Shown: in pieces, positions 33,773-64,000 of the stretch
Numbering within the stretch: position 1 is the stretch's first letter
Layout of the letters: every line of letters starts with the position of its first letter
Assembly (NCBI RefSeq): GCF_004801285.1
Contig: NZ_SSNY01000001.1
Location: 558,001-622,000, forward strand
Length of the DNA stretch: 64,000 nt
Reading direction: 5' to 3'
Source of the DNA: Ollibium composti
GTDB taxonomy: Bacteria; Pseudomonadota; Alphaproteobacteria; Rhizobiales; Rhizobiaceae
The notes under the pieces: model-generated
What the model saw: the letters and a program-made list of their open reading frames with translations, nothing else
The model's database searches: none
What the model was told of the DNA's origin: nothing
Made by a program: the position numbers and the translations under genes

Positions 33773-35173
<1,401 letters not shown>

Positions 35174-35191: not shown

Positions 35192-36574
35192 ATGCCGATC
35201 AACATCACCATGCCGGCCCTGTCGCCCACGATGGAAGAGGGCAACCTCGCCAAGTGGCTGGTCAAGGAGGGCGACAAGGTTTCGCCGGGCGACGTGATCG
35301 CCGAGATCGAGACCGACAAGGCGACCATGGAGGTCGAGGCCGTCGACGAGGGCACGGTCGCCAAACTCGTCGTGCCGGCCGGCACCGAGGGCGTCAAGGT
35401 CAACGCGCTGATCGCCGTCCTTGCCGGTGAGGGCGAGGATGTCGGCGCTGCCGCCATGGGCGGCGGCGATGCGGCGCCGAAGGCTGAGGCAAAAGCCGAG
35501 GCTCCGAAGCAGGATGCCCCGAAGGCTGCACCCGCCGCCGCGCCGGCACCGGCCGCAGCGAGTGCCGCGCCTGTCGCGAACGGTTCTGCCAAGACACAGG
35601 GCGACGACAATCCATATCCCCATCGCACTTTCGCCTCGCCGCTGGCGCGTCGCATCGCCAAGGATGCCGGGATCGACGTAACGGCGGTTTCCGGTTCCGG
35701 CCCGCATGGCCGGGTGGTGAAGGCAGACGTCGAAGCGGCCATCGCCGGCGGCGGTGCCAAGGCGGCGCCTGCCGCCACGGCTGCGGCCTCCCCGACCGCT
35801 GCTCCGACCGCCGCTCCAAAAGCAATGTCGGACGACGCGGTGCTCAAGCTGTTCGAGCAGGGCTCCTACGACCTCGTCCCGCACGACAACATGCGAAAGA
35901 CCATCGCCAAGCGGCTGGTCGAGGCGAAGTCGACCATCCCGCATTTCTACCTGACGCTGGATTGCGAACTGGATGCGCTGCTGGCGCTACGTTCGCAGCT
36001 CAACGCCGCCGCCCCGACGAAGAAGACCGACAAGGGCGACGTGCCGGCCTACAAGCTGTCCGTCAACGACATGATCATCAAGGCGATGGCCATGGCGCTG
36101 ATGGCGGTGCCGGACGCCAACGCGTCCTGGACGGATGCCGCGATGGTCAAGCACAAGCATGCCGACGTCGGCGTGGCGGTGTCCATTCCGGGCGGGCTGA
36201 TCACGCCGATCATCCGCAAGGCCGACCAGAAATCGCTGTCGGCGATCTCCAACGAGATGAAGGACCTCGCCTCCCGCGCGCGCAACCGCAAGCTGAAGCC
36301 CGAGGAATACCAGGGCGGCACGACGGCCGTGTCCAATCTCGGCATGTTCGGCATCAAGGATTTCGCCGCGGTCATCAACCCGCCGCATGCGACGATCCTG
36401 GCGGTCGGCGCCGGCGAGCAGCGGGCCGTGGTGAAGAACGGCGAGGTCAAGGTGGCCACCGTGATGTCGGTGACGCTGTCGACCGATCATCGCGCCGTCG
36501 ACGGCGCGCTTGGTGCCGAACTGCTCGGCGCCTTCAAGACGCTCGTCGAGAACCCGATGGCGATGCTCGTCTAG
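35192..36574 (+). CDS. pdhC: Dihydrolipoamide acetyltransferase (E2 of pyruvate dehydrogenase)
   Basis: 460 residues: a lipoyl domain (1-80, [12 protein letters not shown]), a linker rich in Ala/Pro (85-140), a peripheral subunit-binding domain (about 145-185, SPLARRIAKDAGID ... GPHGRVVKADVE), a second Ala/Pro linker, and the acyltransferase core with catalytic STDHRAVDGALGAE at the C-terminus. Preceded by CGGGAGGG. Forms the core of the complex with PdhAB and LpdA. Confidence 0.96.
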   Translation: MPINITMPALSPTMEEGNLAKWLVKEGDKVSPGDVIAEIETDKATMEVEAVDEGTVAKLVVPAGTEGVKVNALIAVLAGEGEDVGAAAMGGGDAAPKAEAKAEAPKQDAPKAAPAAAPAPAAASAAPVANGSAKTQGDDNPYPHRTFASPLARRIAKDAGIDVTAVSGSGPHGRVVKADVEAAIAGGGAKAAPAATAAASPTAAPTAAPKAMSDDAVLKLFEQGSYDLVPHDNMRKTIAKRLVEAKSTIPHFYLTLDCELDALLALRSQLNAAAPTKKTDKGDVPAYKLSVNDMIIKAMAMALMAVPDANASWTDAAMVKHKHADVGVAVSIPGGLITPIIRKADQKSLSAISNEMKDLASRARNRKLKPEEYQGGTTAVSNLGMFGIKDFAAVINPPHATILAVGAGEQRAVVKNGEVKVATVMSVTLSTDHRAVDGALGAELLGAFKTLVENPMAMLV

Positions 36575-43533: not shown

Positions 43534-44656
43534 ACGCGCCCGCGCAGGCTGCCGCCGTGGCGGACGCCGCCCAGATCGTGCTGAACACTATCCGCCGGCC
43601 GGTGATCATGGTCGGCCCGGATGGTCATGTGTCCTTCGCCAATGCCGACGCGGAGGATTTTTTCCGCTCCAGCGCGCCCATCCTTGCGCGCAACACGCTG
43701 GGACAGCTCATTCCCTTCGGCAGCCCGCTGCTGGCTCTGGTCGAGCAGGTGCGTGAGCGCCGGGCGCCTGTCAACGAGTATCGCGTCGACGTATCCTCGC
43801 CGCGTCTCGGCATCGAGAAGGTCGTCGATCTTTACGTGGCGCCGGTGCCGGAATTTCCGGGGTCCGTCGTGGTGATGTTCCAGGAGCGCTCCGTCGCCGA
43901 CAAGATCGACCGGCAGATGACCCATCGCGGCGCCGCGCGTTCCGTTACCGGACTGGCGTCGATGCTGGCGCACGAGATCAAGAACCCGCTTTCCGGCATC
44001 CGGGGTGCCGCGCAATTGCTGGAGCTTTCAGCCTCCGATGAGGACAGGGCGCTGACGCGGCTTATCACGGAGGAAACCGATCGTATCGTTGCCCTCGTCG
44101 ACCGCATGGAGGTGTTTTCCGACGAGCGACCGATCGACCGCTATCCCGTCAACATCCACGTCGTTCTCGATCATGTGAAGGCGATTACCAAAAACGGTTT
44201 TGGAAAGAAAATCAGGCTATTGGAGGATTATGATCCATCGCTGCCTCCGGTCTACGCCAATCGCGATCAGCTGATCCAGGTGTTCCTCAACCTGGTCAAG
44301 AACGCCGCCGAGGCGATCGGCGGCGATCCGCTGGGCGAGATCACGCTTTCCACGGCCTTCCGACCGGGCATCCGCATGTCGGTGCCGGGAACGCAAGACC
44401 GCGTATCCCTGCCGCTGGAATTCTGCGTGCACGACAACGGGCCGGGCGTCTCGGAGGATATCCTGCCGATCCTGTTCGATCCCTTCATCACCACCAAGCA
44501 GAACGGCTCCGGGCTGGGACTGGCACTGGTGGCCAAGATCGTCGGTGAGCATGGCGGCATCGTCGAATGCGATTCGACGCCTCGCGGCACGACCTTCCGC
44601 GTGCTGCTGCCGGCCTGGAAGGAGACGGGGCCCGGACCTGACACGGAGGATCGCCG

Positions 44657-46198: not shown

Positions 46199-48505
46199 GA
46201 TGTTACGCAGACCATGGCGACGAACGACAAGATGACGCTACAGGCTCCGACATTGGCCGGACCGCTTTTTCGCAAGGCAGGCAGCCGTGATCCACGGCGG
46301 CTGCTGGCCATGCCCGGCGTTATCGCGATCGCCGGCGCGCTGCTGACGGCGGCCGTTTCCTTCGCGATTCTGGTCGGCGTCACGCCGATCACGCCCGACG
46401 AATCGACCACGCTGGTGCTGATCGGCGTCAACGCCGTCTTCATCCTGTGCCTGATGGCGCTGATCGGCCGCGAAGTGCACCGCATCCTGATGGCGCGGCG
46501 TACCGGGCGGGCGGCGTCGCGCCTGCATGTGCGGATCGTCGCGATGTTCGCGCTGGTGGCCGCCATTCCCGCCATCATGGTGGCGATCGTCGCTTCGGTG
46601 ACGCTCAACATCGGCCTCGACCGCTGGTTCGAGATCCGCACCAAGACGATCGTCAATTCCTCGCTGTCGATCGCCGACGCCTATGTGCAGGAAAACGCCC
46701 GCAACCTGCAGGGCACGACGCTGTCCATGGCCTTCGACCTCGACAACGCCCGCCAGCTCTACGGTCTCGACCGCACCGGCTTCCTCGACCTGCTGAACAA
46801 GGAAGCCATCGGCAGAGGGCTGGCGCACGCGGCTCTGGTGAAGCCGGACGGCTCGTACGTCATGAGCGCCAAGACGAACACCGACTTCCCCATGCCCGAG
46901 CCGCCGGAAGGCTCGATCCAGGAAGCGGAGAACGGCCGGCCGCTGCTGATTGCGCCAGAAACCCGCAACATCATGGGCGCCATCATCAAGTTGAAGGAAC
47001 TGGACGGGCTGTTCCTCTACACGATCAAGCTGGTCGATCCCGAAGTGATCAAGGCGCGCGCCATCGTGCGGGCTAACACCGACGAATATCGCGGCCTTGA
47101 GAAGAACCGGCGCACCTCGCAGGTCGCCTTCGCGCTTCCCTATCTGTCGTTGACGCTGATCATCATCCTCTCGGCCGTCTGGACCGGTATCGCCGTGGCG
47201 GACCGGCTGGTGCGGCCGATCCGCCAGCTCATCGGCGCCGCCGACGAGGTCGCGACCGGCAATCTGGACGTCTCCGTGCCGGTGCGGCCTTCCGACGGCG
47301 ACGTGGCCTACCTCGGCGATACCTTCAACAACATGCTGCTCGAACTGAAATCCCAGCGCAACGAGTTGCTGTCGGCCAAGGACCTGATCGACGAGCGCCG
47401 TCGTTTCTCCGAAGCGGTTCTGGAAGGGGTGACGGCGGGCGTTATCGGCGTCGATTCCAACGGCACGATCACCATCGTCAACCGCTCCGCAGAGACGATG
47501 CTGGCCACCTCGTCTGCGGCGGCACTCGGCAAGAACCTGTCCGCCATCCTGCCGCATGTCGGGCGTGTGTTCGAGATCGGTCGCAAGTCTGGCAGGCCGG
47601 TCTATCGCGAGCAGGTCACCTTCTTCCGCACAGGGGCCGAGCGTACCTTCAACGTGCAGGTGACGGTGGAGCAGGCGGAGGGTGACGTCGACGACACTTC
47701 CTATGTGGTGACGGTGGACGACATCACCGATCTCGTACAGGCCCAGCGCTCGTCCGCATGGGCCGACGTGGCGCGGCGCATCGCCCACGAGATCAAGAAC
47801 CCGCTGACCCCCATCCAGCTGTCGGCCGAGCGCATCCGCCGCCGCTACGGCAAGGTCATCACCGAAGACCGCGAAGTCTTCGACCAGTGCACCGACACCA
47901 TCATCCGGCAGGTCGAGGATATCGGGCGCATGGTGGATGAATTCTCGGCCTTCGCGCGCATGCCGAAGCCCGAGATGAAAGCCATCGACCTGCGCGAGCC
48001 CCTGCGCGAGGCTTCGTTCCTGGTCGAAGTCAGCCGTCCCGACATTACCTTCGAGCGTGATTTCGGCGACGAGCCGCTCAAGGGCACGTTCGACAGCCGG
48101 CTTCTGGCGCAGGCTTTCGGCAACGTCGTCAAGAACGCCGCCGAGGCGATGGAAGGGATCGATTGGAAGGACGGCGACCGTGGCGTCATCCGGGTGCGGG
48201 CGCGGCGCGAGGGCGATGCCTATCGGGTCGACGTCATCGACAACGGCAAGGGATTGCCGCGCGAAAGTCGCCAGCGCCTGCTGGAGCCTTATATGACGAC
48301 GCGCGAGAAAGGCACCGGCCTCGGCCTCGCCATCGTCAAGAAGATCGTCGAGGACCATGGCGGGCGATTGGAACTCCACGACGCACCGGCGGATTTCCAC
48401 GGTGGGCGAGGGGCCATGATCAGCATGATCGTGCCCGCCGCAGCACCTGGCGCTGGGCGGAACACACAAGAACGAGAAACTGAAAAGGTCGACAATGGCG
48501 TCTGA
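46187..48505 (+). CDS. ntrY: Transmembrane nitrogen sensor kinase NtrY
   Basis: 772 residues (ATG 46214 would give 763). Several N-terminal membrane helices and a periplasmic/extracytoplasmic part (about 40-330), a HAMP domain (about 340-395, DRLVRPIRQLIGAADEV), PAS (about 410-520), then HisKA with [19 protein letters not shown] (His at about 534) and HATPase (VKNAAEAM, GTGLGLAIVKKI). Partner of NtrX, whose start lies inside its 3' end. Confidence 0.95.
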   Translation: MRCIDVTQTMATNDKMTLQAPTLAGPLFRKAGSRDPRRLLAMPGVIAIAGALLTAAVSFAILVGVTPITPDESTTLVLIGVNAVFILCLMALIGREVHRILMARRTGRAASRLHVRIVAMFALVAAIPAIMVAIVASVTLNIGLDRWFEIRTKTIVNSSLSIADAYVQENARNLQGTTLSMAFDLDNARQLYGLDRTGFLDLLNKEAIGRGLAHAALVKPDGSYVMSAKTNTDFPMPEPPEGSIQEAENGRPLLIAPETRNIMGAIIKLKELDGLFLYTIKLVDPEVIKARAIVRANTDEYRGLEKNRRTSQVAFALPYLSLTLIIILSAVWTGIAVADRLVRPIRQLIGAADEVATGNLDVSVPVRPSDGDVAYLGDTFNNMLLELKSQRNELLSAKDLIDERRRFSEAVLEGVTAGVIGVDSNGTITIVNRSAETMLATSSAAALGKNLSAILPHVGRVFEIGRKSGRPVYREQVTFFRTGAERTFNVQVTVEQAEGDVDDTSYVVTVDDITDLVQAQRSSAWADVARRIAHEIKNPLTPIQLSAERIRRRYGKVITEDREVFDQCTDTIIRQVEDIGRMVDEFSAFARMPKPEMKAIDLREPLREASFLVEVSRPDITFERDFGDEPLKGTFDSRLLAQAFGNVVKNAAEAMEGIDWKDGDRGVIRVRARREGDAYRVDVIDNGKGLPRESRQRLLEPYMTTREKGTGLGLAIVKKIVEDHGGRLELHDAPADFHGGRGAMISMIVPAAAPGAGRNTQERETEKVDNGV

Positions 48506-53613: not shown

Positions 53614-54798
53614 TCAGTCAAGCACCGAGACGACGGCCTTGGCCAGCTCTTCCAGTCCGTTCTCCGGCAGGCCGGCGACGTTGATGCGGCTGTCGCTGAC
53701 CATATAGACGGCATGCTCCTCGCGCAGGCGCTGCACCTGGCTTTCCGTCAGGCCGAGGCGCGAGAACATGCCGCGATGGCCGGCGATGAAATCGAACCTG
53801 TCGGAGTTGGACTGGCGGCGCAGCGCCTCGGCGAAACGCTGCCTGAGCAAAAGCATGCGCTGGCGCATTTCTTCCAGTTCGGCCTGCCAGTCGGCGCGCA
53901 GGGCAGGGTCCTGCAAGACCATACGCACCGCGGCGGCGCCATGGTCCGGCGGCATGGAATAGAGCGTGCGCGCGCCGGCAAGCATCTGGCTCGAAGCGAT
54001 GTCGGCCTGTGCGGCATTCGCCGTCATGACCATGGCTGCACCGACGCGGTCGCGGTAGACGGCGAAGTTCTTCGAGCAGCTTGCCGCCACGACCATCTCT
54101 GGCACCTTGGCGGCGACGATGCGCAGGCCTTCGGCATCGGCATCGAGGCCGTCGCCAAAACCCTGATAGGCGATGTCGATGAACGGCAGCAGGTTCTTTT
54201 CAACCAGCAGGCCGGCAACGGCCGTCCACTGGCTGGCGTCGAGATTGGCGCCCGTCGGGTTGTGGCAACAGCCATGCAGCAGGATCACATCGCCTGCGGG
54301 CGCGCCCTTCAGCGCCGCCAGCATGGCGTCGAAACGAACGGTTCCGGTCTCGGCATCGAAATAGGGGTATTCCCGAACCTGGAGTCCCGCGGCGCGCAGG
54401 ATCGCGATGTGGTTCACCCATGTCGGGTCCGACACCCACACGGTCGCGTCAGGCCGGGCGTGCTTCAACAGTTCGGCGACAAGCCTGAGCGCGCCGGAGC
54501 CGCCCGGTGTCTGGGCGGCGCGGATGCGCGTCGTATCGGCGTTCGCGCCGAAGACGAGTTTGGCCATTGCCTCGTTGAAAGCCGTATCGCCGGCGAGCCC
54601 GAGATAGGACTTGCTGTCCTGATCGGCGAGCAGCCGCTTCTCGGCTTCGCGAACGGCACGCATGACCGGCGTCTTGCCGGCGTTGTCCTTGTAGACGCCG
54701 ACGCCGAGATCGACCTTGTTCGGGCGCTCATCGGCACGGTAGAGCCCGATCAGGGCCAGGATCTTGTCTGCGGGGGCGGGCTTCAGGTCTTCGAACAT
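53614..54798 (-). CDS. Aromatic/aspartate aminotransferase (class I)
   Basis: PLP enzyme transferring amino groups between aromatic or dicarboxylic amino acids and 2-oxo acids (TyrB/AspC group). The ATG at 54798 gives 394 residues. Family blocks: NKVDLGVGVYKD, GGSGALR, HGCCHNPTG, DIAYQGF and the PLP Lys in CSKNFAVYRDRVG (about 245). The prophage left end lies only 118 bp upstream, so transcription from the phage may affect it. Confidence 0.93.
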   Translation of the reverse strand: MFEDLKPAPADKILALIGLYRADERPNKVDLGVGVYKDNAGKTPVMRAVREAEKRLLADQDSKSYLGLAGDTAFNEAMAKLVFGANADTTRIRAAQTPGGSGALRLVAELLKHARPDATVWVSDPTWVNHIAILRAAGLQVREYPYFDAETGTVRFDAMLAALKGAPAGDVILLHGCCHNPTGANLDASQWTAVAGLLVEKNLLPFIDIAYQGFGDGLDADAEGLRIVAAKVPEMVVAASCSKNFAVYRDRVGAAMVMTANAAQADIASSQMLAGARTLYSMPPDHGAAAVRMVLQDPALRADWQAELEEMRQRMLLLRQRFAEALRRQSNSDRFDFIAGHRGMFSRLGLTESQVQRLREEHAVYMVSDSRINVAGLPENGLEELAKAVVSVLD

Positions 54799-54914
54799 GG
54801 AGAGGCTTTCAGCGTTCGGCGTTGCGTGATGGAGCGCCGGTTGGAGGCAGGGGCTTGATACGCAAATCGACGCGGTTGCGCCAGCGCCTTTGCGCCTCGG
54901 CTTCCTCATAGATC

Positions 54915-54943
54915 AAAGTCGCATAAGATAGAAATCGGAATTT
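54915..54943. other. attL: phage-host junction with hybrid dif-like site
   Basis: 54915-54932 (AAAGTCGCATAAGATAGA) is identical to 60764-60781. It supplies a XerC-type arm (AAGTCGCATAA) and 6-bp centre (GATAGA). The next 11 bases (AATCGGAATTT, 54933-54943) do not match a XerD arm (only GGAA and one T agree), so this half is read as phage-derived. Confidence 0.8.
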
Positions 54944-55066
54944 CAATGACTTAGTGACAGTAACCACCTGAATCTGATTTGGGTGTTACCTGTCAAGAAT
55001 GAAAAAACATTATCCCGACCATTAATATCAACATCCAGATCGCCACCGTTGACAACGTCTTATCCA
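54944..55066. promoter_or_regulatory. Phage non-coding region by attL, with candidate promoter and imperfect hairpin
   Basis: Contains a minus-strand TTGACA (54996-54991) pointing toward attL, and an imperfect inverted repeat around 54961-54991 (TAACCACC ... GGGTGTTACC). In the circular phage this strand would read through attP into the late genes. No clear -10 box was found. Confidence 0.35.
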
Positions 55067-55549
55067 TCACCCCCTCCGATCACACCACGGCACGAACCGC
55101 TTAACGCCGCCGCCCTTCGAGCGAGCGGCTTTCTTACTATCAGGACGTTCCTTGCAGTGTACACCGTCGCGCGCCTTTTCAGACGACTTCCTTGCGTCAG
55201 GCTCCTTGACTGCATGAACTAAAGATAGGTTTGAGCGGGTTCGCTGCTTTTCCAGCTTAAGAGTTTTCGGAGGGCTCCGCTTAGCAGCGGGAGAGGGTAG
55301 GGGCGACACCACAGGTTCGCGCAGGGATGACCGCACGGCTCCGCCGTTGATCCGGTCATGGTAAGAGCGATCCCTAGTCGGGATCGCCAGACGTTTCTTA
55401 GACGGGCTCTTGAGAGAAGGGGCGGACCATGCCAGCGGTGAGGCTACTCGCCCCGGCTCATTGCGAGATACCGGCCTTTTTGAATGAGGGCCGCTTGAGC
55501 GTCCCGCTGCCTTTGTTTCATGGCGTCGGGCCTTACTTTTTCGTGCCAT
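55067..55549 (-). CDS. Phage basic protein overprinted on the rep 3' end (VP5-like)
   Basis: 160 residues, very rich in Lys, Arg and Ser, with a C-terminal Cys-containing segment (VHCKERPDSKKAARSKG then RFVPWCDRRG). Start is backed by an excellent ribosome-binding site (GGGAGGTGA six bases upstream). The first 106 bp overlap rep in another frame, the compact style of microviruses. Probably nucleic-acid binding; in gokushoviruses the small VP5 in this place is linked to ssDNA synthesis. The assignment is inferred. Confidence 0.6.
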   Translation of the reverse strand: MARKSKARRHETKAAGRSSGPHSKRPVSRNEPGRVASPLAWSAPSLKSPSKKRLAIPTRDRSYHDRINGGAVRSSLREPVVSPLPSPAAKRSPPKTLKLEKQRTRSNLSLVHAVKEPDARKSSEKARDGVHCKERPDSKKAARSKGGGVKRFVPWCDRRG

Positions 55550-56523
55550 CCTAGGTCACCTCCCGTATCGTATGAGAACCACAGTCGGACGCCATCAACG
55601 TCCGACCAATAACAATTGACGTACTCGTCAAAGAACGGCTCCGTTCCGCCCGGAGGAGGAGCCCAAGGGACCGGCACGCGGGCGAGCCCCGCGAATTGTG
55701 GAAGCGTGACGCTTTCCACATAGCGTTCAAGGCCCTTGTTCAGCCAATGCCAGATGACGGGCGATTGCGGCGGCTCATCATTATATCGAGCCCGCCATGC
55801 TTCAACGAAGTACCGGCAGAAATTATCAGCCGTCTTGCCGCTCATCATGAACTGTATTGGCTTAGACGCCTCCCGGAACACCTTTACCGTTTTGCCCCTT
55901 GTCCCGTTTGGGACACGGCGCACATCAGAGAACGAGTAAAACAAATCTTGCGGTGCCAAGCCCGCATCGACGTACCTTTCCGCCAGATCGCGGAAATAGG
56001 CGTCTCCGAGGGGAGGCTTTTTCGAAGGCATCGGGCCGAAGCCCTGTCGGGCGTCGTCGCCCATGTCCTTTTGCAGATACTTGCAGGCGTAGCGGATCGC
56101 CTCCGGCGACACCTTGTCCCAATAGGACCAGCCGTGCGGCCAGTGCTTTTCCTTAAAGTTCTCACGGAGAACATGGTCGGGGACGTCGCCTTGCCAGTAC
56201 AGCACGATATGCCAGTGCGCACGGCCCTTTTTCGAGCCATACTCGCCCACGACGAAGTAGCGCACCGGATATCCATCGACGCGCAGGTACTTGAGGTACT
56301 TCTGCACGTCGGAATAGGTCAAAACCGCCGCCCTGATATGGTCGATACCGCCAATCGTCAGGTCTTCACCGTAGGTCAGCGTCACAACATGCGCCGCCGT
56401 GGCAGTTTTTCCCTCGGCAATGTTTCGACCGACCCAATCATCAACCTTGCGTTCCAAACATTGCCAGCATTTGCGACAGGCCACGAAACCAACGTCAGGG
56501 ACTTTGCTTGGATTGATGCACAT
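55444..56523 (-). CDS. Phage replication initiator VP4 (HUH endonuclease)
   Basis: Starts rolling-circle replication by nicking the phage origin. 359 residues. N-terminal CRKCWQC (C16, C19, C22) is the microvirus VP4 cysteine cluster. HUH metal motif is HWH at 103-105 inside GRAHWHIVLYW, preceded by RYFVVGEYGS. Catalytic Tyr region is RYACKYLQKD (Y145, K148, Y149, K152). Followed by a hydrophilic C-terminal half. Ribosome-binding site is weak. The 3' end overlaps the next gene by 106 bp. Confidence 0.92.
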   Translation of the reverse strand: MCINPSKVPDVGFVACRKCWQCLERKVDDWVGRNIAEGKTATAAHVVTLTYGEDLTIGGIDHIRAAVLTYSDVQKYLKYLRVDGYPVRYFVVGEYGSKKGRAHWHIVLYWQGDVPDHVLRENFKEKHWPHGWSYWDKVSPEAIRYACKYLQKDMGDDARQGFGPMPSKKPPLGDAYFRDLAERYVDAGLAPQDLFYSFSDVRRVPNGTRGKTVKVFREASKPIQFMMSGKTADNFCRYFVEAWRARYNDEPPQSPVIWHWLNKGLERYVESVTLPQFAGLARVPVPWAPPPGGTEPFFDEYVNCYWSDVDGVRLWFSYDTGGDLGWHEKVRPDAMKQRQRDAQAALIQKGRYLAMSRGE

Positions 56524-56553
56524 GGTTTTCGCGTCCTGTCACTAAATGCACAT

Positions 56554-56561
56554 TGGACCAA
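56554..56561 (-). promoter_or_regulatory. TTGGTCCA motif upstream of phage rep
   Basis: The 8-mer TTGGTCCA (minus strand) lies 31 bp upstream of rep and is repeated at 60742-60749, upstream of the late operon. It may be a shared promoter or operator element; it could also be chance. Confidence 0.25.
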
Positions 56562-56574
56562 GAGATGAGTGCTT

Positions 56575-56612
56575 GGCTGGCGAGAAAACTACTAGAGATT
56601 TTCTCGCCAGCC
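56575..56612 (-). other. 14-bp perfect hairpin between M15 peptidase and rep genes
   Basis: GGCTGGCGAGAAAA pairs with TTTTCTCGCCAGCC around a 10-nt loop, in the 99-bp gap before rep. It may be a transcription terminator with the U-rich side inside the stem, or the rolling-circle origin structure nicked by VP4. Confidence 0.7.
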
Positions 56613-56622
56613 GGGGAGGGCG

Positions 56623-57180
56623 CTACTTGCGCCCATCCCAGTCCTCGCCGTCCGCATAGGCGGCGCGGATCGCCCGCCAATGCGTCAACTCCCAATGGGC
56701 CGGGTCATAGAACTCCCAGTCACCGCCCCATGTGATTTGCAAGCCGGATTGCGCGGCCACCTCCTTTCCGAGGTGGCCGATAATCGCCCACTGCCTAGGC
56801 GTCAGAGCCCACGCTTTGGTGCCATGGACCAAGTCCACAGCCGCGCCATAGTTATGAGGGCTTTGCCCCGCGCGGGCCTTGCTATGGCCCGCACGGAACG
56901 CGGCGTTCTGGTCCGCAGACGTGCGGATGACCGTATGTGCCCAGAGAGGGATACCGAGCTTGAACGCGCGCTTTATTAGCCTTCGCTCAAATTCGAGAAT
57001 ATCCGGCTGCGCACCCGTCCGGTCTGCACGGCCTTGCTGGACCCCGTACGCTTCGGAGAAGCAGAACGAGCGGTCTATCATCCCGCGCAGCTCATCGGCG
57101 TAGGCGCTGCCCCCAAGCCCCGGAACAACGTCCGGGGCAGGGGGCGACGTGTCGAAGTCAGCTTGCCGCAGGTTCGCCAT
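56623..57180 (-). CDS. Phage M15-family peptidase (endolysin candidate)
   Basis: Cuts peptidoglycan peptides; likely releases progeny or aids entry. The ATG at 57180 (GGAGG eight bases upstream) gives 185 residues and a 23-bp overlap with the previous gene; an ATG-equivalent at 57321 would overprint 164 bp and lacks such a site. Zinc ligands read as His109 and Asp116 in SPHNYGAAVD and His162 in WGGDW then YDPAHWEL, the M15C (VanY/T5-endolysin-like) layout. No signal peptide, so a holin is needed. Confidence 0.88.
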   Translation of the reverse strand: MANLRQADFDTSPPAPDVVPGLGGSAYADELRGMIDRSFCFSEAYGVQQGRADRTGAQPDILEFERRLIKRAFKLGIPLWAHTVIRTSADQNAAFRAGHSKARAGQSPHNYGAAVDLVHGTKAWALTPRQWAIIGHLGKEVAAQSGLQITWGGDWEFYDPAHWELTHWRAIRAAYADGEDWDGRK

Positions 57181-57763
57181 CGTCCGAGCCTCCGGGCTCC
57201 GGTGCGGGTCCGGGTTCGCCTGCGACCGGTGCTGATACTTCTCCCGAACCAGCGCTTGCAGGCGCTCCCGTAGTGTCGGTGACGACTGTTTCGGCTGCAC
57301 GTGCTGCTTCCTCCTCCGCACGGCGGCGCTGATAGGCCGCCTCGATTTCAGCGGACTGCTGCGCCAGCCGCCGTTCCATGTTCTGGTTCATGAGGAACAT
57401 CATTTCTTCGAGTTCCGGGTTGCGGTGGCGGCGCTGCGCAATCTTCGTGAAGATCACAGGGTCAACCACCTCCGCATAGGCCGGTTCGGTCTCCGCAGAC
57501 TGGTAATAGACCTCGCCAACATCGGGTTCGGGGTAGACCGCATGGACCCCGGCAATCGAATATTCGATTGTCTCCCGGCCGGGCCCGGCGACCGCCAGCA
57601 GCCGCGGCCCATCGCCATTTTCAAGATAAAGCCGGGTCTTGTTTTCCAGCAGAAGGTTCAGGCGAACTCGCCGTTCACCATCGCCACCCGGCTTGTCGAA
57701 GTTAATCACTTCGCCGCTGTTCAAAAGCGTCCACCGAACAACGCTATCCATCTTGATCGTCAT
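57158..57763 (-). CDS. Phage protein, likely internal scaffolding protein (VP3-like)
   Basis: 201 residues: a beta-rich N-terminal part (1-95), a charged helical stretch predicted to be coiled-coil (about 112-155, NPELEEMMFLMNQ to RRRAEEE), and a Gly/Pro/Glu-rich acidic tail. Size, position in the capsid block and charged helices suggest the microvirus scaffold, but I see no decisive motif. Start has AAAGG upstream. The 3' end overlaps the peptidase gene. Confidence 0.6.
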   Translation of the reverse strand: MTIKMDSVVRWTLLNSGEVINFDKPGGDGERRVRLNLLLENKTRLYLENGDGPRLLAVAGPGRETIEYSIAGVHAVYPEPDVGEVYYQSAETEPAYAEVVDPVIFTKIAQRRHRNPELEEMMFLMNQNMERRLAQQSAEIEAAYQRRRAEEEAARAAETVVTDTTGAPASAGSGEVSAPVAGEPGPAPEPGGSDDGEPAAS

Positions 57764-57782
57764 TTCATGACCTTTAAGGTTG

Positions 57783-57806
57783 CCCGCTAGCGCCTCCGCT
57801 AGCGGG
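57783..57806 (-). terminator. Perfect 10-bp hairpin after the capsid gene
   Basis: CCCGCTAGCG and CGCTAGCGGG flank a 4-nt loop (GAGG on the minus strand), 26 bp after the VP1 stop. Intercistronic hairpins in this place set capsid to scaffold ratios in phiX174-type phages; here it has no U-tract. Confidence 0.6.
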
Positions 57807-57831
57807 TCAGTTGAACGAGAGAGGGGAGGGG

Positions 57832-59499
57832 TCAGGCCTTTTCGACGCGCTCTTGCGGAGCGACGGCCAGAACCTTTTCATAATCGTCGGTCGCCTCGAC
57901 CAGATGACCGCCGAACACCGTGTTGCCTTCGATGAACACGTCGCCCTGGGTGACCACTTCGAACGGGTCTTGATTGGTCACGACAAACGGCTTCGTGTGC
58001 ATCGTGGTGCACAGGTAGAAATCCGTCGACAGGGTAGGGTTCTGGGTCTCGACCGCCCAAATACGCTGGCGATCCTCATCAAAGCCCGCATCGACTTCGG
58101 GACGGTAGAACCGCCCGCCGACGCGCGGAGCGTCGATGTTCCAGCGAGCGTTCAGCGGCTCATAGCCGAACGTCGCGTCCGGTGCATCGTGGTCAACGTC
58201 GATACGACTATTCTTGACCACATCGACCTTTTCAGGATCGAGCGTATCGCGGAGATATTGCGGGAGCTGGTCCACCGACGTTGTGACCAGATACGGATCT
58301 TCCTGCCGCTCAAAAAGCTGATCGGGAGTAATCTCCGCAACCACCATGACGATGCCGCCCGTTCCGATACGCGGGGTCTGGATCGACATATCAACGAACG
58401 TCGCGCCGTTGACCACGCTTTCGGTCAGATTGCCAGCGTCAGAGGCGTAGCGTTTCGCCATGCCAAAGATCGTTGTCTTGTCGGCAAGCAGCATAGGCTG
58501 GGTCAGCGCCTGCTCCGGAATGGAAATACCATCCATCAGCAGATTGATGATCCAGTCATCATGCTGATTGTACTGCTGACGCAAACGGGCGAAGGCCTGT
58601 GTCTTGCGGGCAAGCTCGATATTGGACAGGGACACGGTAATACCGTTGTCCTGTAGCTCCGCCCAGATATCAGGCACGCCCTGCGCAGCGGCCCTTATGG
58701 CGACCGTCGACAGCCCCGTACCCGGCGCGTCTCCGTAACCGGATACCGCATAGCCAGCGGGATATGTTTCATACACGCCGCCGCCGCCGCTCTCGCGGCC
58801 GCCCATACCGGTTGACACCGGCTGCGCAGCGCCGGTCAGCGCAAGGCCTTTCACCGGCATCTTCGAGTTGACGACGTTAAGCGGGACCTCGCCGTCAATC
58901 ACCGCCTGATCGAAGTCAGGGACGATATGACGGAACTGTTCATGGGTCCAGAACGCCGGAGCCAGCGACGATTCGTAGATTTCCCGCAGCGCCAAATCGG
59001 GCGACCGGTTTTTGGCCCGAAAGTTCCAGATTGTATTGTACGCCTCGGCATACGCAGCGTTGACTACCTGCCCATCGCGAACATGCAGGCCCAAATGCCT
59101 ATAGACCGGGCGACTGCCAGCACCACCCGCCATAGGCCCGACCGAAAAGAACGGCACGACCGCCGCACCCTCAACCGGCGGCTTGCCCTCATATGAGCGG
59201 TTCAACTGATCCATCGACCCATTGAACCTTTCGAACGCGAGATTCGGGACCAGATAGGCCATGACGCGGACGTTCACCGCGTTCATGAGCACTTCCGCCG
59301 TTTCCATCATTTCGAAGGAGAAGCGGAGCCGACCGGACCGAATGCCGTCCTCTCGCAGAAGCGGGAAGGCGGCTATCGGCACCATCTTGCCAGCGGGGAG
59401 CGACGTGATACCGCGCGCCGACTGTCTGCGCATCGTGCGCGGCGTCCGCAACGGCTGTGTGTTCATACGCGCGTTGCTTATCGAGTTCGGAGCTTTCAT
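57832..59499 (-). CDS. Phage major capsid protein VP1 (Microviridae F-type)
   Basis: 555 residues, the size of microvirus capsid proteins. Typical features: N-terminal basic stretch, then RFSFEMMETAEVLMNAVNV, VMAYLVPNLAFERF, an insertion loop rich in Gly (about 245-275) where gokushoviruses carry the threefold protrusion, LARLRQQYN-like helix (about 320), and NPTLSTDFYL near the end. Start has AAGGAAG seven bases upstream, written in the codons of the preceding 27-residue gene, whose stop overlaps this ATG (ATGA). Confidence 0.92.
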   Translation of the reverse strand: MKAPNSISNARMNTQPLRTPRTMRRQSARGITSLPAGKMVPIAAFPLLREDGIRSGRLRFSFEMMETAEVLMNAVNVRVMAYLVPNLAFERFNGSMDQLNRSYEGKPPVEGAAVVPFFSVGPMAGGAGSRPVYRHLGLHVRDGQVVNAAYAEAYNTIWNFRAKNRSPDLALREIYESSLAPAFWTHEQFRHIVPDFDQAVIDGEVPLNVVNSKMPVKGLALTGAAQPVSTGMGGRESGGGGVYETYPAGYAVSGYGDAPGTGLSTVAIRAAAQGVPDIWAELQDNGITVSLSNIELARKTQAFARLRQQYNQHDDWIINLLMDGISIPEQALTQPMLLADKTTIFGMAKRYASDAGNLTESVVNGATFVDMSIQTPRIGTGGIVMVVAEITPDQLFERQEDPYLVTTSVDQLPQYLRDTLDPEKVDVVKNSRIDVDHDAPDATFGYEPLNARWNIDAPRVGGRFYRPEVDAGFDEDRQRIWAVETQNPTLSTDFYLCTTMHTKPFVVTNQDPFEVVTQGDVFIEGNTVFGGHLVEATDDYEKVLAVAPQERVEKA

Positions 59500-59579
59500 T
59501 TCTTGCTTCCTTTCTTGAAGCGTTTCAACAACTTACGAAGTTTCGCGCGGCGGCGCGCACATGCGCCGCAGCGGCTCAT
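59496..59579 (-). CDS. 27-residue basic phage protein (J/VP8-like DNA-packaging protein)
   Basis: Starts at an ATG overlapping the VP2 stop and stops overlapping the VP1 start, so it is locked between the two virion genes. The product is half Arg/Lys (ARRRAKLRKLLKRFKKGSKK) with two Cys near its start. This matches in size, charge and place the phiX174 J / gokushovirus VP8 genome-condensing peptides. The same codons supply the VP1 ribosome-binding site. Confidence 0.75.
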   Translation of the reverse strand: MSRCGACARRRAKLRKLLKRFKKGSKK

Positions 59580-60442
59580 TGGAAAACCGGATTGGTTTTG
59601 TAGGGCTTGCCCCAATTCGGGGTCACAAGCGGCGGAGGGGCGGGGCGAGGGCCATTCGGACCCCACTTTTTCGCCCAAGCGGCCTCATTTGCCGTGCGAT
59701 TGGCCGACAGATTGGCCGCAATATCGCGAGCGCCAGTGTACAGACCGTATATCCATTGCAGCGGCTCCGCATCGCCGTAACGCTGCTCCAACGCGTCCGC
59801 ATCGCGAACATTCGGGTCAACCACCCATGACTCCCATGGATTGGTGACCGTAGGGTCTTCGATCTTCGGAACACGCGGATTACCCGCCGACGCCGACAAG
59901 GCAGCAGGCTTGCCGGACGAACGCCGCTCCACTGCCCCGGCTTCATAGGTCGGGACGTTGAACGACCGTCGCGAGTAGCCTTCAGTTGAAGCGTTCAGGT
60001 TGCGGATTTGCGCTTGCACAAGCTGGTAGCTCGACTCCCGCGCCGCATCCGCGTACGGGTCGAAGTTTCCCAGCCAGTTTGCACCCGCCGACGACAAGCT
60101 TTCGCCGATATAGGCACCGGCTCCCGCCGTTGCCTGTTCAGCCACCGCTTGCTTGACAGGCGCTTGGCGGGAGAGGGGGGCGAAACCCGCAGCAGCGTTG
60201 TAGTTCGCCCCGCCGCCATTGCGCAGCGCAGTCAGCGGGTTGAAGCCCGCTTTCTCCGCATCCTCGACCAGATGCGAATAGACTTGGCGAGAATACGCCC
60301 GAGCCTCCGCCCGGTCTTCCAAGTCCCACGCGCGTTGCTGCGCAGCCGCTTCCTTGCTGTAAGCGTACTGCTGCTCAGCGGCAGCACGATCATTTTCAGC
60401 CTGCTGCTGCGCCTGCTTTTTCTTAGCGCTGGACGACAGCAC
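59576..60442 (-). CDS. Phage DNA pilot/minor protein VP2
   Basis: Delivers the ssDNA genome into the host. 288 residues from the first conventional start (GTG 60442): Lys/Gln/Ala-rich coiled-coil helix (about 6-60), a Gly/Ala-rich middle and a polar C-terminus. But in-frame codons upstream back to the amber codon at 60488-60490 read FIGALLGIGASIIGG, the hydrophobic Gly-rich start expected for VP2, and the only ribosome-binding site (GGGAGG) points to 60484-60487. The true start is therefore probably a non-ATG codon (ATC at 60484, 302 residues) or depends on the upstream gene. Confidence 0.85.
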   Translation of the reverse strand: MLSSSAKKKQAQQQAENDRAAAEQQYAYSKEAAAQQRAWDLEDRAEARAYSRQVYSHLVEDAEKAGFNPLTALRNGGGANYNAAAGFAPLSRQAPVKQAVAEQATAGAGAYIGESLSSAGANWLGNFDPYADAARESSYQLVQAQIRNLNASTEGYSRRSFNVPTYEAGAVERRSSGKPAALSASAGNPRVPKIEDPTVTNPWESWVVDPNVRDADALEQRYGDAEPLQWIYGLYTGARDIAANLSANRTANEAAWAKKWGPNGPRPAPPPLVTPNWGKPYKTNPVFQ

Positions 60443-60487
60443 ACCGCCGATAATGGACGCGCCGATACCGAGTAGGGCGCCGATGAA

Positions 60488-60679
60488 CTAGGCGCCCTCC
60501 CGTTTGTTCGCGCTGGAGAACAGCAAGTCCCACGCGACCAGAGACGCGGCGATCAGCGCATCGGTAATCTGATGGACCACAGGCCCGTCCACACCGCGCG
60601 CAATCAGCCAGACGGCCAATGCCGTTCCGGCTCTTTCAACCAGAGGTCGAACAATTGACCTGACCAACAACCCTTTCAT
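60488..60679 (-). CDS. 63-residue phage membrane protein (holin candidate)
   Basis: Two hydrophobic helices (about 17-29, AGTALAVWLIARG, and about 38-54) with a basic N-terminus and charged C-terminus: the layout of a class II holin. Strong ribosome-binding site AAAGGAG five bases before the ATG. It ends in TAG in the same frame as VP2. With the M15 peptidase it would form a lysis pair; no direct evidence. Confidence 0.65.
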   Translation of the reverse strand: MKGLLVRSIVRPLVERAGTALAVWLIARGVDGPVVHQITDALIAASLVAWDLLFSSANKREGA

Positions 60680-60692
60680 ATCTGCTCCTTTC

Positions 60693-60708
60693 GTGTCGCT
60701 TTCGACAC
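60693..60708 (-). promoter_or_regulatory. 6-bp hairpin before the first late phage gene
   Basis: GTGTCG/CGACAC with a 4-nt AAAG loop (minus strand), seven bases before the AAAGGAG ribosome-binding site; may protect or gate the mRNA 5' end. Confidence 0.45.
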
Positions 60709-60744
60709 TAAGTCGCAGAATTTCCTTTGCTATCTGACCTGTGG

Positions 60745-60760
60745 ACCAATCAAGATTGGT
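60745..60760. promoter_or_regulatory. 16-bp palindrome next to the XerC arm of attR
   Basis: ACCAATC-AA-GATTGGT, a perfect inverted repeat with a 2-nt centre, four bases from the XerC arm. Candidate repressor operator or accessory site for recombination. Confidence 0.5.
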
Positions 60761-60764
60761 ACAA

Positions 60765-60792
60765 AAGTCGCATAAGATAGATTATGGAACTA
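60765..60792. other. dif: dif site (XerC arm, centre, XerD arm) / attR
   Basis: AAGTCGCATAA (60765-60775), GATAGA (60776-60781), TTATGGAACTA (60782-60792): the 11-6-11 layout with GCATAA and TTATG flanking the centre, as in E. coli dif (GCGCATAA and TTATGTT). It is the chromosomal dimer-resolution site and, at the same time, the right phage junction. After integration a complete dif remains here. Confidence 0.82.
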
Positions 60793-61359: not shown

Positions 61360-62187
61360 TCACTCTGATTCATAAGGGATTTCGATTGTCATGCCGTCAT
61401 AGGCCGGTTCTACCTCGCTCGGCGTTTCCGCCATGACGGTCGCGTAGTCCAGCGGAACGTGCATGTGGGTCAGGACGGCTCGTTTCGGTGCCAGCCTGCC
61501 GATCCACTCCAGCGCTTCGCCGAGTGAGAAATGACTGGGATGCGGCTTATATTGCAGCGCATCGATCACCAGCACGTCGATCTCCGTCAGGCGCGGGGCG
61601 GTCGCGTCGGGAAAGGCGCTGACATCAGGACAGTAGGCCAGATTACCGATGCGGAAGCCGAGCGAGACGATGTCACCGTGGACCTGCGGCAGCGGCTCGA
61701 AGGTGAGGGGACCGCCCTCTCCTTCTATTGTCAGCAGCCGGTCGTGCTCGATCGTATGGGCCAGCAGGATCGGCGGATAGGAACTGCCCGGCGGCGTCTC
61801 GAAGCAATAGCCGAAGCCTTCGCGCAGCCGCGCCAGCGTCGGCCTGTCGGCATGGATATCCATCATCCTGCGCTGCTCCAGCACGAAGCTGCGCAGGTCG
61901 TCGATGCCGTGGATATGGTCGGCGTGCGGATGCGTGTAGATGACAGCATCGATGCGATCGACTTCGGCCATCAGCATCTGCTGGCGGAAATCCGGGCCGG
62001 TGTCGATGACGACGCGCGTGGTGCCGGTTGCCGAGACGCGCTCGGCCATCGCAGCGCAGCGCATGCGCCGGTTCTTCGGATTGGCCGGATCGCAATTACC
62101 CCAGTCGCCGGTGATGCGCGGCGTGCCGGGCGAGGAGCCGCAGCCAAGAATCGTCAGGCGCAGGCGATCTCTACCTTGGGCGACCAT
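61360..62187 (-). CDS. Metallo-beta-lactamase-fold hydrolase (PhnP-like)
   Basis: 275 residues from ATG 62187 (two bases after the tatD stop). MBL metal motif THPHADHIHG (about 85-95), an upstream LGCGSSPGTPRITGDWGNCD and the C-terminal LTHMHVPLDY. Homologues next to tatD and metG in Rhizobiales are annotated as cyclic phosphate phosphodiesterases (PhnP-like); the substrate here is unproven. Confidence 0.88.
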   Translation of the reverse strand: MVAQGRDRLRLTILGCGSSPGTPRITGDWGNCDPANPKNRRMRCAAMAERVSATGTTRVVIDTGPDFRQQMLMAEVDRIDAVIYTHPHADHIHGIDDLRSFVLEQRRMMDIHADRPTLARLREGFGYCFETPPGSSYPPILLAHTIEHDRLLTIEGEGGPLTFEPLPQVHGDIVSLGFRIGNLAYCPDVSAFPDATAPRLTEIDVLVIDALQYKPHPSHFSLGEALEWIGRLAPKRAVLTHMHVPLDYATVMAETPSEVEPAYDGMTIEIPYESE

Positions 62188-62189
62188 GC

Positions 62190-62999
62190 TCAGGCGCCCT
62201 GCCCGCCCGGTCCGGATATGGGCGGCTTCGGCATTTTTGAGAACAGCCGGAAGAAATTCTCCGTGGTGATCCGGGCGATCTCGTCGGCCGTGACGCCGAT
62301 CGTCTCGGCCAGCACCTTCGCCGTTTCCACCACGAAGGATGGTTCGTTGCGCTGACCGCGATGCGGCACCGGCGCAAGGTAAGGCGCATCCGTCTCGACC
62401 AGCAGGCGGTCGCGCGGAACCTGCGTCGCGATGGCGCGCAGCCCGGCGGAATTCTTGAAGGTCAGGATACCGGAAAAGGAAACGTAGCCGCCCAGCGCCA
62501 CGCCCACTTCGGCAAGCCGCCGCCCTGAGGAAAAGCAATGCAGGATGAAGGGGAAAGCCCCCTTCCCCGTTTCCTCCTCGAGGATGGCGGCGACGTCGTC
62601 GTCGGCGCTGCGCGCATGGATGACCAGCGGCAAGCCCGTCTCGCGAGCGGCAGCGATGTGGGTGCGGAAGCCGGCCGCTTGTGCGGCGCGCGGCGCGTGG
62701 TCGTAATGATAGTCCAGGCCAACCTCGCCGATGGCGACGACCTTCGGGTGCGCGGAGAGCCGCACAAGATCCTCGGCCGTGACGTCGAGTTCCTCGGCGG
62801 CGTTGTGCGGATGAGTGCCGACGGAGCAATAGACTACGTCGTAAGTGTCCGTGATTTCAAGGAGTTGTGAAAATCGCTTCACGCGCGTCGAGATCGTTAC
62901 CATGCGCCCGACACCAGCGGCGAGGGCGCGGGCGACGATCGCCGCCCGCTCCTCGGCAAAGTCCGGAAAGTCGAGATGGCAATGGCTGTCGACCAGCAT
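62190..62999 (-). CDS. tatD: TatD-family metal-dependent deoxyribonuclease
   Basis: 269 residues, TIM-barrel hydrolase. Metal ligands HxH in DSHCHLD (His6, His8), then GEVGLDYH (Glu), a VIHARSAD His, HCFSSG His and the Asp of ETDAPYLAP. The start shares one base with the metG stop (TGATG), so it is coupled to metG. Confidence 0.94.
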   Translation of the reverse strand: MLVDSHCHLDFPDFAEERAAIVARALAAGVGRMVTISTRVKRFSQLLEITDTYDVVYCSVGTHPHNAAEELDVTAEDLVRLSAHPKVVAIGEVGLDYHYDHAPRAAQAAGFRTHIAAARETGLPLVIHARSADDDVAAILEEETGKGAFPFILHCFSSGRRLAEVGVALGGYVSFSGILTFKNSAGLRAIATQVPRDRLLVETDAPYLAPVPHRGQRNEPSFVVETAKVLAETIGVTADEIARITTENFFRLFSKMPKPPISGPGGQGA

Positions 63000-64000
63000 C
63001 ACGCGCTCGCTTCCGGCTGCTCGACGTAACGCGGGAAAACCGGCTGCGGCGTCGGCAGAGCCGTTCCGGCAGTCAGGGCGTGGCCGGCTGCGACATGCTC
63101 GAACTGGCGCCTGCCGGCCGGCACCGCCAGCAGGTCGAGCAGCCTTTCCGCCGATCCGGGAATGTAGGGCTGGCAAAGGATCGCCACCCGCCGGATCGTC
63201 TCGGCCGTCGTCCACAGCACCGTTTCCATGCGCGCCGGGTCGGTCTTCTTCAGCGCCCACGGTTCCTGCGCGGCGAAATAGCGGTTGGCCTCCGCGACGA
63301 CGCCGAAGATGGCCGCCAGCGCGTGATGGATGCCCTGCTCCGCCATCGCCTCTCGCGCCGTGGCCAGCGCCGCCTCGGCCTGCGTCAGGATCGCCTTGTC
63401 GGCGTCGGCGAACTCGCCCTGTTTCGGCACGACACCGCCGCAGTTCTTGGCGATCATCGACAGCGAGCGCTGCGCCAGGTTGCCGAGGTCGTTGGCGAGG
63501 TCGGCATTGGTGCGGTTGACGATCGCTTCATGGCTGTAGCTGCCGTCCTGGCCGAACGGCACCTCGCGCAGGAAGAAATAGCGCACCTGGTCGAGCCCGT
63601 AATGCTCGACCATGGTGAACGGGTCGATGACGTTGCCGAGCGACTTCGACATCTTCTCGCCGCGGTTGAACAGGAAGCCATGGCCGAAGACGCGCTTCGG
63701 CAATTCGATGCCGGCCGACATCAGGAACGCTGGCCAGTAGATGGCGTGGAAGCGCACGATATCCTTGCCGATGATGTGGGCGTCCGCTGGCCAGAAACGC
63801 CATTTGTCAGCGTTTTCATCCGGATATCCGGCGGCCGTGATGTAATTCGTGAGGGCGTCGACCCACACATACATCACATGCTTTTCGTCGCCCGGCACCG
63901 GCACGCCCCAGTCGAAGGTGGTGCGCGATATCGACAGATCCTTCAGGCCGGCCTTGACGAAGCTGACGACCTCGTTGCGGCGCTCGGATGGGCCGATGAA
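62999..64000 (-). CDS. metG: Methionyl-tRNA synthetase, C-terminal part (truncated by window edge)
   Basis: Open to the right edge, so the N-terminal catalytic start is outside. Visible: [22 protein letters not shown] (catalytic core end), the KMSKS loop [15 protein letters not shown], and the alpha-helical anticodon-binding domain with [12 protein letters not shown]. No C-terminal tRNA-binding (EMAP-like) extension is present; the protein ends shortly after the helical domain. Confidence 0.95.

Follow-up and report, generated by a model that had tools for sequence, protein, structure and literature searches.

A complete-looking microvirus provirus in the dif site of Ollibium composti, likely inserted by the host XerC and XerD recombinases

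Within the 64-kb stretch of Ollibium composti DNA analysed here (the window), the block at 54933-60781 (5,849 bp, genes on the minus strand) is a complete-looking microvirus provirus, presumably of a phage with a tiny, single-stranded DNA genome. The provirus lies exactly in dif, the short site at which chromosome copies are unlinked, and we consider it very likely that the host recombinases XerC and XerD inserted it through a dif-like site in the double-stranded form of the phage. It is bounded by an 18-bp direct repeat, AAAGTCGCATAAGATAGA, whose copies at 54915-54932 and 60764-60781 are identical and spaced 5,849 bp apart. This repeat is one of three cases of exactly repeated 18-mers in the window, and its 15-base core occurs only twice in the 4.65-Mb genome (allowing up to 2 mismatches), both times at the provirus ends. 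The assembly has a single copy of the provirus, whose GC content is 59.3% versus 65.0% for the remainder of the window. All eight of its ORFs are free of internal stops, and Pfam and PHROGs searches found no integrase among them; repeat and ORFs together confirm the integrated microvirus of Hyphomicrobiales, with exact repeats and no integrase gene, that an earlier note had described.

The repeat is composed of the XerC arm and the central hexamer of dif. At the left junction (54916-54932, plus strand), the host XerC arm (54916-54926) and the hexamer GATAGA (54927-54932) are followed by the phage-side XerD arm, AATCGGAATTT (54933-54943, plus strand), in which four of the eight inner bases are as in TTATGGAA. 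The right junction (60765-60792, plus strand) joins the phage XerC arm, the hexamer and the host XerD arm into a complete dif; the right copy with its host flank shares 27 of 28 bases with the dif published for Mesorhizobium loti, and a search of the genome for CATAA-N6-TTATGGAA with at most one mismatch found this junction as the sole site. The phage site itself has an XerC arm matching at 8/8 bases, the same hexamer as the host dif and a poor XerD arm. It is the one dif-like site of the element (score 15.3; next best -1.2), and under a scoring matrix derived partly from sister dif sites it lies above the 99th percentile (7.7) of 300 shuffles, one of which scored 18.7.

Among the provirus genes, VP1, the major capsid protein (57832-59499, 555 aa), is assigned by PHROG and phage-record matches, and VP4, the HUH replication initiator (55444-56523, 359 aa), by Pfam, PHROGs and motifs (CRKC at residue 16, HWH at residue 103, YACKY at residue 145), with PHROG 942 (replication initiation, 9.9e-35) backing VP4 and PHROG 514 (major head, 9.1e-9) backing VP1. 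The Pfam matches above cut-off are REP_ORF2-G2P (2.9e-17) and Peptidase_M15_4 (5e-9). The M15 peptidase, a predicted endolysin (56623-57321; GTG start, true start unsure), carries HNYGAAVD at residue 156 and HWE at residue 209 and overlaps a VP3-like ORF of 201 aa (57158-57763), recognised by comparison with relatives, whose position suggests a scaffold role. Motif positions and family matches agree with the HUH protein, cysteine cluster and M15 zinc motif noted earlier. VP2 (59576-60442; GTG start, true start unsure) is a DNA pilot protein by similarity and resembles ORFs annotated as such in two relatives (L124 and L146). A J-like basic peptide had also been claimed, and the 60-aa ORF in question (59496-59678) is indeed conserved in relatives, but only over its final 27 or so residues, which alone probably make up the peptide. 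Two further conserved ORFs, beyond those listed earlier, are a basic ORF overlapping the end of VP4 (55067-55549; conserved tail CKxRP...GGG..KRFVPWC) and a small hydrophobic ORF of 63 aa upstream of VP2 (60488-60679). For the latter, holin was a weak guess that we set aside, with 2 of 18 members reaching a holin PHROG (best E 0.0039).

The host, likely a bacterium of the Mesorhizobium group, can be compared with its sisters at this locus. On the XerD side stand a beta-lactamase-fold gene, which we take to be phnP-like, tatD and metG (61360-63904, minus strand), the same genes that adjoin dif in sister genomes (16 of 18 by blastn, six of six longer regions). On the XerC side, an aminotransferase gene (53614-54909, minus strand) has its first ATG 6 bases off the left junction; no 3-kb sister locus contained it, and three of the six longer ones did, kilobases away from dif. 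Other mobile insertions between that gene and dif in sister genomes were considered and rejected: of eight ORFs scanned from three sisters, four matched Pfam families, none of them phage-named, and four had no match. The dif 28-mer is present in all 18 other genomes of the genus, and, in the comparison with sisters proposed in the earlier note, none of the eight phage proteins has a match in 24 loci around dif from these 18 genomes, and two provirus loci serving as positive controls both matched. The best matches to XerC (C6, 310 bits, below the cut-off of 335) and XerD (C5, 321 bits, below the cut-off of 330) in the host's own genome are different proteins, and among 14 control genomes the best match also falls below the curated cut-off in 12 for XerC and in 10 for XerD.

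The reading as an integrated microvirus had been staked on Microviridae similarity and on flanking repeats, and both were found: VP1 matches 73 phage records, 71 of them over at least 80% of the length, and all ten proviruses examined, the window's included, have paired dif-like borders with an identical hexamer in both copies (L174 and L083 are one and the same DNA, counted once). Dif-likeness was one of the guides used to locate the borders, so that their dif character is no independent finding; the identity of the two hexamers is. The other nine proviruses have VP1 sequences 48-72% identical to that of the window, and the ten together show six different hexamers. The inner bases of the host XerD arm match at 8/8 in all ten, the phage XerD arm being weaker in nine. 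Among these relatives, the poor phage arm of L139 is instead that of XerC, the XerC arms of both copies are weak in L081 and L082 (5-6/8), and L140 has reversed gene orientation and one stop in VP1. The same chromosomal phnP-like, tatD and metG genes adjoin six of the ten, and contigs bearing repC, which was searched for in five of the ten genomes, host two. In one of these two, the hexamer is CATCAA, that contig's own, versus GATAGA in the presumed chromosome.

We propose that host XerC and XerD would recombine dif with the dif-like site of the double-stranded phage form. With the crossover inside the hexamer, one end should carry a full dif, made of the phage XerC arm and the host XerD arm, and the opposite end a hybrid half-dif. 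These predicted products correspond to the junction sequences observed. Because insertion leaves a full dif, the host chromosome would still resolve its dimers. The hexamer shared by both copies predicts that the same enzymes could also excise the phage, with the half-dif at the left end perhaps making this rare. Once excised, the phage would begin rolling-circle replication through VP4, assemble its virion from VP1, VP2 and the J-like peptide, and breach the cell wall with the M15 enzyme; Xer catalysis, excision, virion production and lysis are steps that we infer. The intact genes and sites would fit the live or recently active phage of the earlier note. It is unlikely, though the least unlikely of the alternatives, that the provirus is an old Xer integration, now immobile and retained or decaying: the XerD arm at the left site is degenerate and the VP1 of L140 carries a stop, so decay does occur in this lineage, but here eight of eight ORFs are open, the XerC arm and hexamer are exact at both ends, and Tortoise microvirus 47, a free circular record, has the same XerC arm and hexamer.

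Far less probable is a one-way, CTX-like integration from folded single-stranded DNA, with attP a hairpin in the packaged strand. In the circular form attP does lie between the halves of an imperfect 20-nt inverted repeat, a folding z of -4.0 was obtained in the window for the stretch preceding the small ORF, and stems near attP lie above background overall (18 genomes, Fisher P 0.0016), driven by five relatives. However, the window stem nearest attP is at random level, 65% of places reaching the same, and the folding z averages -3.5 over 12 stretches with the site and -2.6 over 10 without it, the value for 63 random places being -2.7 (sd 1.65). The folding tests thus gave no support for such an attP in the window, and a single dif-like site in direct orientation, its hexamer matching that of the host, has no need of a hairpin. 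That an unrelated integrase or homologous recombination happened on a dif-like sequence is scarcely credible, given ten of ten proviruses in dif-like sites, with six hexamers each identical in both copies, and no integrase gene among the eight ORFs.

Insertion by XerC and XerD, the preferred reading, may extend to a wider group. A dif-like attP occurs at one fixed position in nine of 27 free relatives (L154 was counted as having it for its position, although 27 of 200 shuffles reach its score, and L125 as lacking it, as its match, reached by 2 of 200 shuffles, sits within a gene). Tortoise 47 and two Flyfo records have it at the same position, with GATAGA in two of the three. At that position it was not seen in the chicovirus branch; the site is absent in three Rhizobium records of this branch and present in two chaparrovirus records, and the chaparrovirus hexamer TCTGTC (GACAGA in the opposite reading) is that of none of the 57 dif-like sites which 47 of 81 genomes yielded. 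The hexamers by replicon, together with the lack of attP in the chicovirus branch, suggest a possible role of the hexamer in choosing the replicon and a loss of lysogeny in one branch. Tentatively, and at a little under an even chance, Xer lysogeny would be a trait of the lineage, the hexamer would address the replicon (GATAGA the chromosome; CATCAA, for example, repABC), a full dif would always be rebuilt for the host at one end, and chicoviruses would be virulent through loss of the site. This would give a testable rule for how integrase-less phages choose between chromosome and plasmids, and it predicts that, among cultured Rhizobium microviruses, chaparroviruses are temperate and chicoviruses are not.

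Sequence comparison makes the provirus a relative of the Rhizobium chaparro- and chicoviruses in the order Secretvirales; it joins a kind of temperate phage already known. The nearest record is Tortoise microvirus 47 (VP1 75% identical), followed by Flyfo microviruses Tbat2_105 (72%) and Tbat2_110 (68%); NCBI taxonomy leaves Tortoise 47 and Flyfo 105 unclassified. RHph_TM1_7A, with a VP1 46% identical to the window's, is there a Chaparrovirus (Chicoviridae, Secretvirales), and the two fall together within a 40-row set of the VP1 tree (SH-aLRT 99). The window VP1 is at least 30% identical to members of Secretvirales and Chicoviridae, 30% VP1 identity being the family threshold (PMC9239249), and the window has the gene order VP1-peptidase/amidase-VP4-VP2 described for Families 7 and 14 in the same paper, which appear to correspond to Secretvirales. 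VP1 and VP4 matches occur in all 24 loci compared and the M15 enzyme in 22. There are 73-74 VP1-related phage records, of which 27 were fetched. The first VP1 tree took 66 of 80 viral-contig loci, the careful tree kept 34 of its 101 rows, leaving out 64 viral-contig rows and three long-branch records, and L176 and L177, which came to light later, are absent from every tree. The suggestion that the gene set may define its own group does not hold: the provirus has the gene content and order of the Rhizobium and gut-metagenome (Tortoise and Flyfo) microviruses, and the VP1 trees agree; therefore the provirus forms no group of its own.

The Rhizobium chaparro- and chicoviruses (PMC9512667) share with the window the order VP1-VP3 like-endolysin-VP4-small ORF-VP2, at 46-51% identity in VP1 and 40-44% in VP4. 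They were published as plaque-forming isolates; the same paper names putative prophages of Mesorhizobium and Agrobacterium, and its main text makes no mention of Xer, a recombinase, an attachment site or an insertion site. Tortoise 47 and Flyfo Tbat2_105 and 110, also with the gene order of the window, are circles from animal faeces. The window VP1 shows a distant likeness (1e-6) to PDB capsid chains 9ffg and 9ffh, presumably the Ebor capsid. Ebor (Tainavirinae, Rhodobacter capsulatus) is, according to excerpts of PMC11980548, likewise an alphaproteobacterial microvirus with a lytic enzyme, but is inserted within the RuBisCO cbbII operon and has a putative methylase. The VGJ, TLC and CTX phages of Vibrio cholerae, as the available portion of PMC4246890 describes them, are also integrase-less single-stranded DNA elements at dif, but filamentous. 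With no integrase of its own and a position in dif with a dif-like attP, the window element is a putative IMEX, an integrative element that uses the host Xer enzymes. In the TLC class, attP has a poor XerC arm and XerD exchange comes first; the window XerC arm matches at 8/8, which sets this class aside here, while L139 does look TLC-like. The VGJ class, in which homology to dif is missing from the XerD side of the attP centre (PMC4246890, in part), was favoured first for the poor XerD arm and dropped because the hexamer is identical in both copies. The CTX class uses two inverted dif-like sites folding as single-stranded DNA (same portion of PMC4246890); the window has a single site, with an attP stem no better than random. 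Among other microviruses, the sections available place the enterogokushoviruses (PMC7062461) and the Bacteroidetes microviruses BMV (PMC3091885) at dif-like sites, in lineages and hosts other than those of the window microvirus; in E. coli, enterogokushovirus lysogeny is there reported to be abolished by xerC and xerD deletions. Both dif-using microviruses and rhizobial microvirus prophages are thus already in print, and a sharply bounded, intact-looking dif provirus from a soil group is now available beside them.

In the stretch at 54933-60781, eight ORFs on the minus strand, none interrupted by a stop, lie between two exact copies of AAAGTCGCATAAGATAGA. Pfam and PHROG searches recognise VP4 as the HUH Rep, a further product as an M15 peptidase and, with less support, VP1 as the major head protein. 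The integrated microvirus that an earlier note had claimed from the sequence is real, and that reading is correct in the main. GC content is 59.3% in the block versus 65.0% outside, and a 15-base core of the repeat, searched with two mismatches allowed, has no further occurrence in the genome (36 contigs, 4.65 Mb). Elsewhere in the window, exact 18-mers recur about 1.4 kb apart (33872-33985 with 35291-35404) and about 3.8 kb apart (43971-44317 with 47786-48150); of the 33 repeated 18-mers in the window, these two pairs account for 32.

The right junction, 60765-60792 (AAGTCGCATAAGATAGATTATGGAACTA), is identical at 27 of 28 positions to the dif of Mesorhizobium loti MAFF303099 as tabulated in PMC2731167 (Table 1), and it is the sole site found in the genome for CATAA-N6-TTATGGAA at one mismatch or fewer. 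In the left copy the XerC arm and the central hexamer are retained and then give way to phage sequence, AATCGGAATTT, so that the 18-bp repeat stops exactly where the XerD arm starts. In the host genome itself, XerC and XerD have different best matches, both under curated cut-offs. All 18 other same-genus genomes searched contain the dif 28-mer, with the hexamer GATAGA in 14, GATATA in three and GATAGG in one. On the XerD side, family matches indicate a beta-lactamase-fold gene, which we take to be phnP-like, followed by tatD and metG; these genes are kept in 16 of the 18 sisters (blastn, right flank) and in all six longer regions. The XerC side is less conserved, because those sister genomes lack its aminotransferase in the 1.5 kb next to dif, and only three of the six longer regions have it. 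In a comparison with sister genomes, as proposed in the earlier note, the phage proteins matched none of 24 sister loci and did match both provirus loci used as positive controls.

We examined ten proviruses (the one in the window, L081-L084, L138-L140, L176 and L177). VP1 was found in 4 of 397 genomes of the order and 4 of 146 of the genus, both counts including the window's own genome. The DNA of L083, from Mesorhizobium sp. GbtcB19, recurs unchanged in one genome of the genus search, which makes it likely that the host belongs to the Mesorhizobium group. In every provirus the hexamer is identical between the two copies (GATAGA in four, TATATA in two, and GATATA, GGTAGA, TGTAGA and CATCAA in one each) and the host XerD inner arm is matched 8/8, while the phage XerD arm is weaker in nine, the exception being L139, where the phage XerC arm is poor instead. 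Both copies have weak XerC arms in L081 and L082, and L082 is joined between VP1 and VP3 rather than before VP2, so its attP, the dif-like site of the phage, has moved. L140 carries its genes on the strand of dif, opposite to the other nine, and its VP1 has one stop. The phnP-like, tatD and metG genes adjoin six of the ten (window, L082, L083, L084, L140 and L176).

We searched for repC in five of the ten provirus genomes. L177 has CATCAA in both copies and lies on contig C4 of genome G536, which carries repC; in this assembly, with 4% contamination, three other contigs have dif-like sites: C1, presumably the chromosome, with GATAGA, and the likewise repC-bearing C3 and C8, with GATAGC and GATAGT respectively. 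L081, with TGTAGA, is on a repC-bearing Agrobacterium vitis contig, and in three further genomes (G000, G150 and G414) repC is on contigs other than that of the provirus. These few cases, in which the dif-like sites are only putative dif, suggest that the hexamer may select the replicon.

VP1 matches 73 phage records, 71 of them in alignments that cover 80% or more of it, with identities of 75% to Tortoise microvirus 47, 72% to Flyfo 105, 46-51% to the four Rhizobium phages compared and 37-45% to the two Roseobacter phages compared. In a careful VP1 tree of 34 rows, a six-row core (100/99) unites the window's VP1 with those of Tortoise 47, Flyfo 105, Flyfo 110, an Aquibium provirus and an A. 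vitis provirus, enclosed by a nine-row set (94/92). By the thresholds given in PMC9239249 (30% for family, 50% for genus), its VP1 is in the family range of RHph_TM1_7A and the genus range of Tortoise 47; the taxonomy dump assigns the chaparrovirus RHph_TM1_7A to Chicoviridae, order Secretvirales. Across 24 loci, VP1 and VP4 occur in all and the M15 enzyme in 22, VP2 has no match in L127, L139, L140, L142 and L144, and the order VP1-VP3-M15-VP4 is constant wherever the genes were found.

The small hydrophobic protein before VP2 (60488-60679), whose pattern PLxRRxGTA..GVPxDxAxQ is kept over 18 genomes, might conceivably be a holin partner of the M15 enzyme. The J-like peptide (59496-59678), matched in L084, L122, L123, L176 and L177, is likely about 27 aa long, starting at an internal ATG. 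A basic ORF (55067-55549, minus strand) overlaps the end of VP4 and has the conserved tail CKxRP...GGG..KRFVPWC; homologues occur in L081, L083, L084, L122, L123, L126-L128, L139, L149 and L151, and 16 relatives at E 0.001 were retrieved when 5.8 billion proteins were searched by a word-based method. The matching frame in L128, of the chicovirus branch, lies at about 4568-4720, where no CDS is annotated.

Among 27 free genomes, nine (L121-L123, L130, L146, L148, L150, L155 and L156) have a dif-like site with a score that no more than 1 of 200 shuffles attained, and all nine sites end 12-72 bases upstream of the small gene preceding VP2 (distances from the gene tables of the records, with the L122 gene start from tblastn). 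Weak sites in the same position occur in L141 (7/200) and L154 (27/200), L125 has a site within a gene (2/200), and in the other 15 the best score was reached by at least 16 of 200 shuffles. In the chicovirus branch, none of the seven labelled rows, L125 included, has a dif-like site at the usual attP position. On the careful tree the att labels require 4 changes versus a shuffled mean of 9.5, with 0 of 300 shuffles at 4 or fewer. Proviruses are att-positive by selection, so the count for free genomes alone is fairer: 20 rows, eight of them att-positive, give 4 changes versus a mean of 6.5, with 11 of 300 shuffles at 4 or fewer. Presence or absence of attP follows the VP1 lineage, with modest support. 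The VP1 tree pairs L140 with L156 (Tortoise microvirus 74) as sisters; in both, attP lies on the strand of the genes, has TATATA as its hexamer and is poor in its XerD arm. Dif-like sites with TATATA, judged by their scores (19.5-24.8), are also found in the viral contigs L065, L066, L061 and L062, relatives that may possibly be temperate too.

One paper reportedly named Occultatumvirinae and Tainavirinae. Integrase-less microviruses at dif were described in 2011 (PMC3091885), in 2020 together with xerC/xerD deletions (PMC7062461) and in 2025 for Ebor (PMC11980548), Families 7 and 14 appear as temperate phages in Hyphomicrobiaceae (PMC9239249), and putative rhizobial microvirus prophages are reported in PMC9512667. 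In a survey of literature listings we found no description of the att site of Rhizobium-lineage microviruses. As far as we searched, the exact chromosomal dif, the sharing of hexamers on different replicons and the way attP is distributed over the lineages go beyond what is in print for these known systems.
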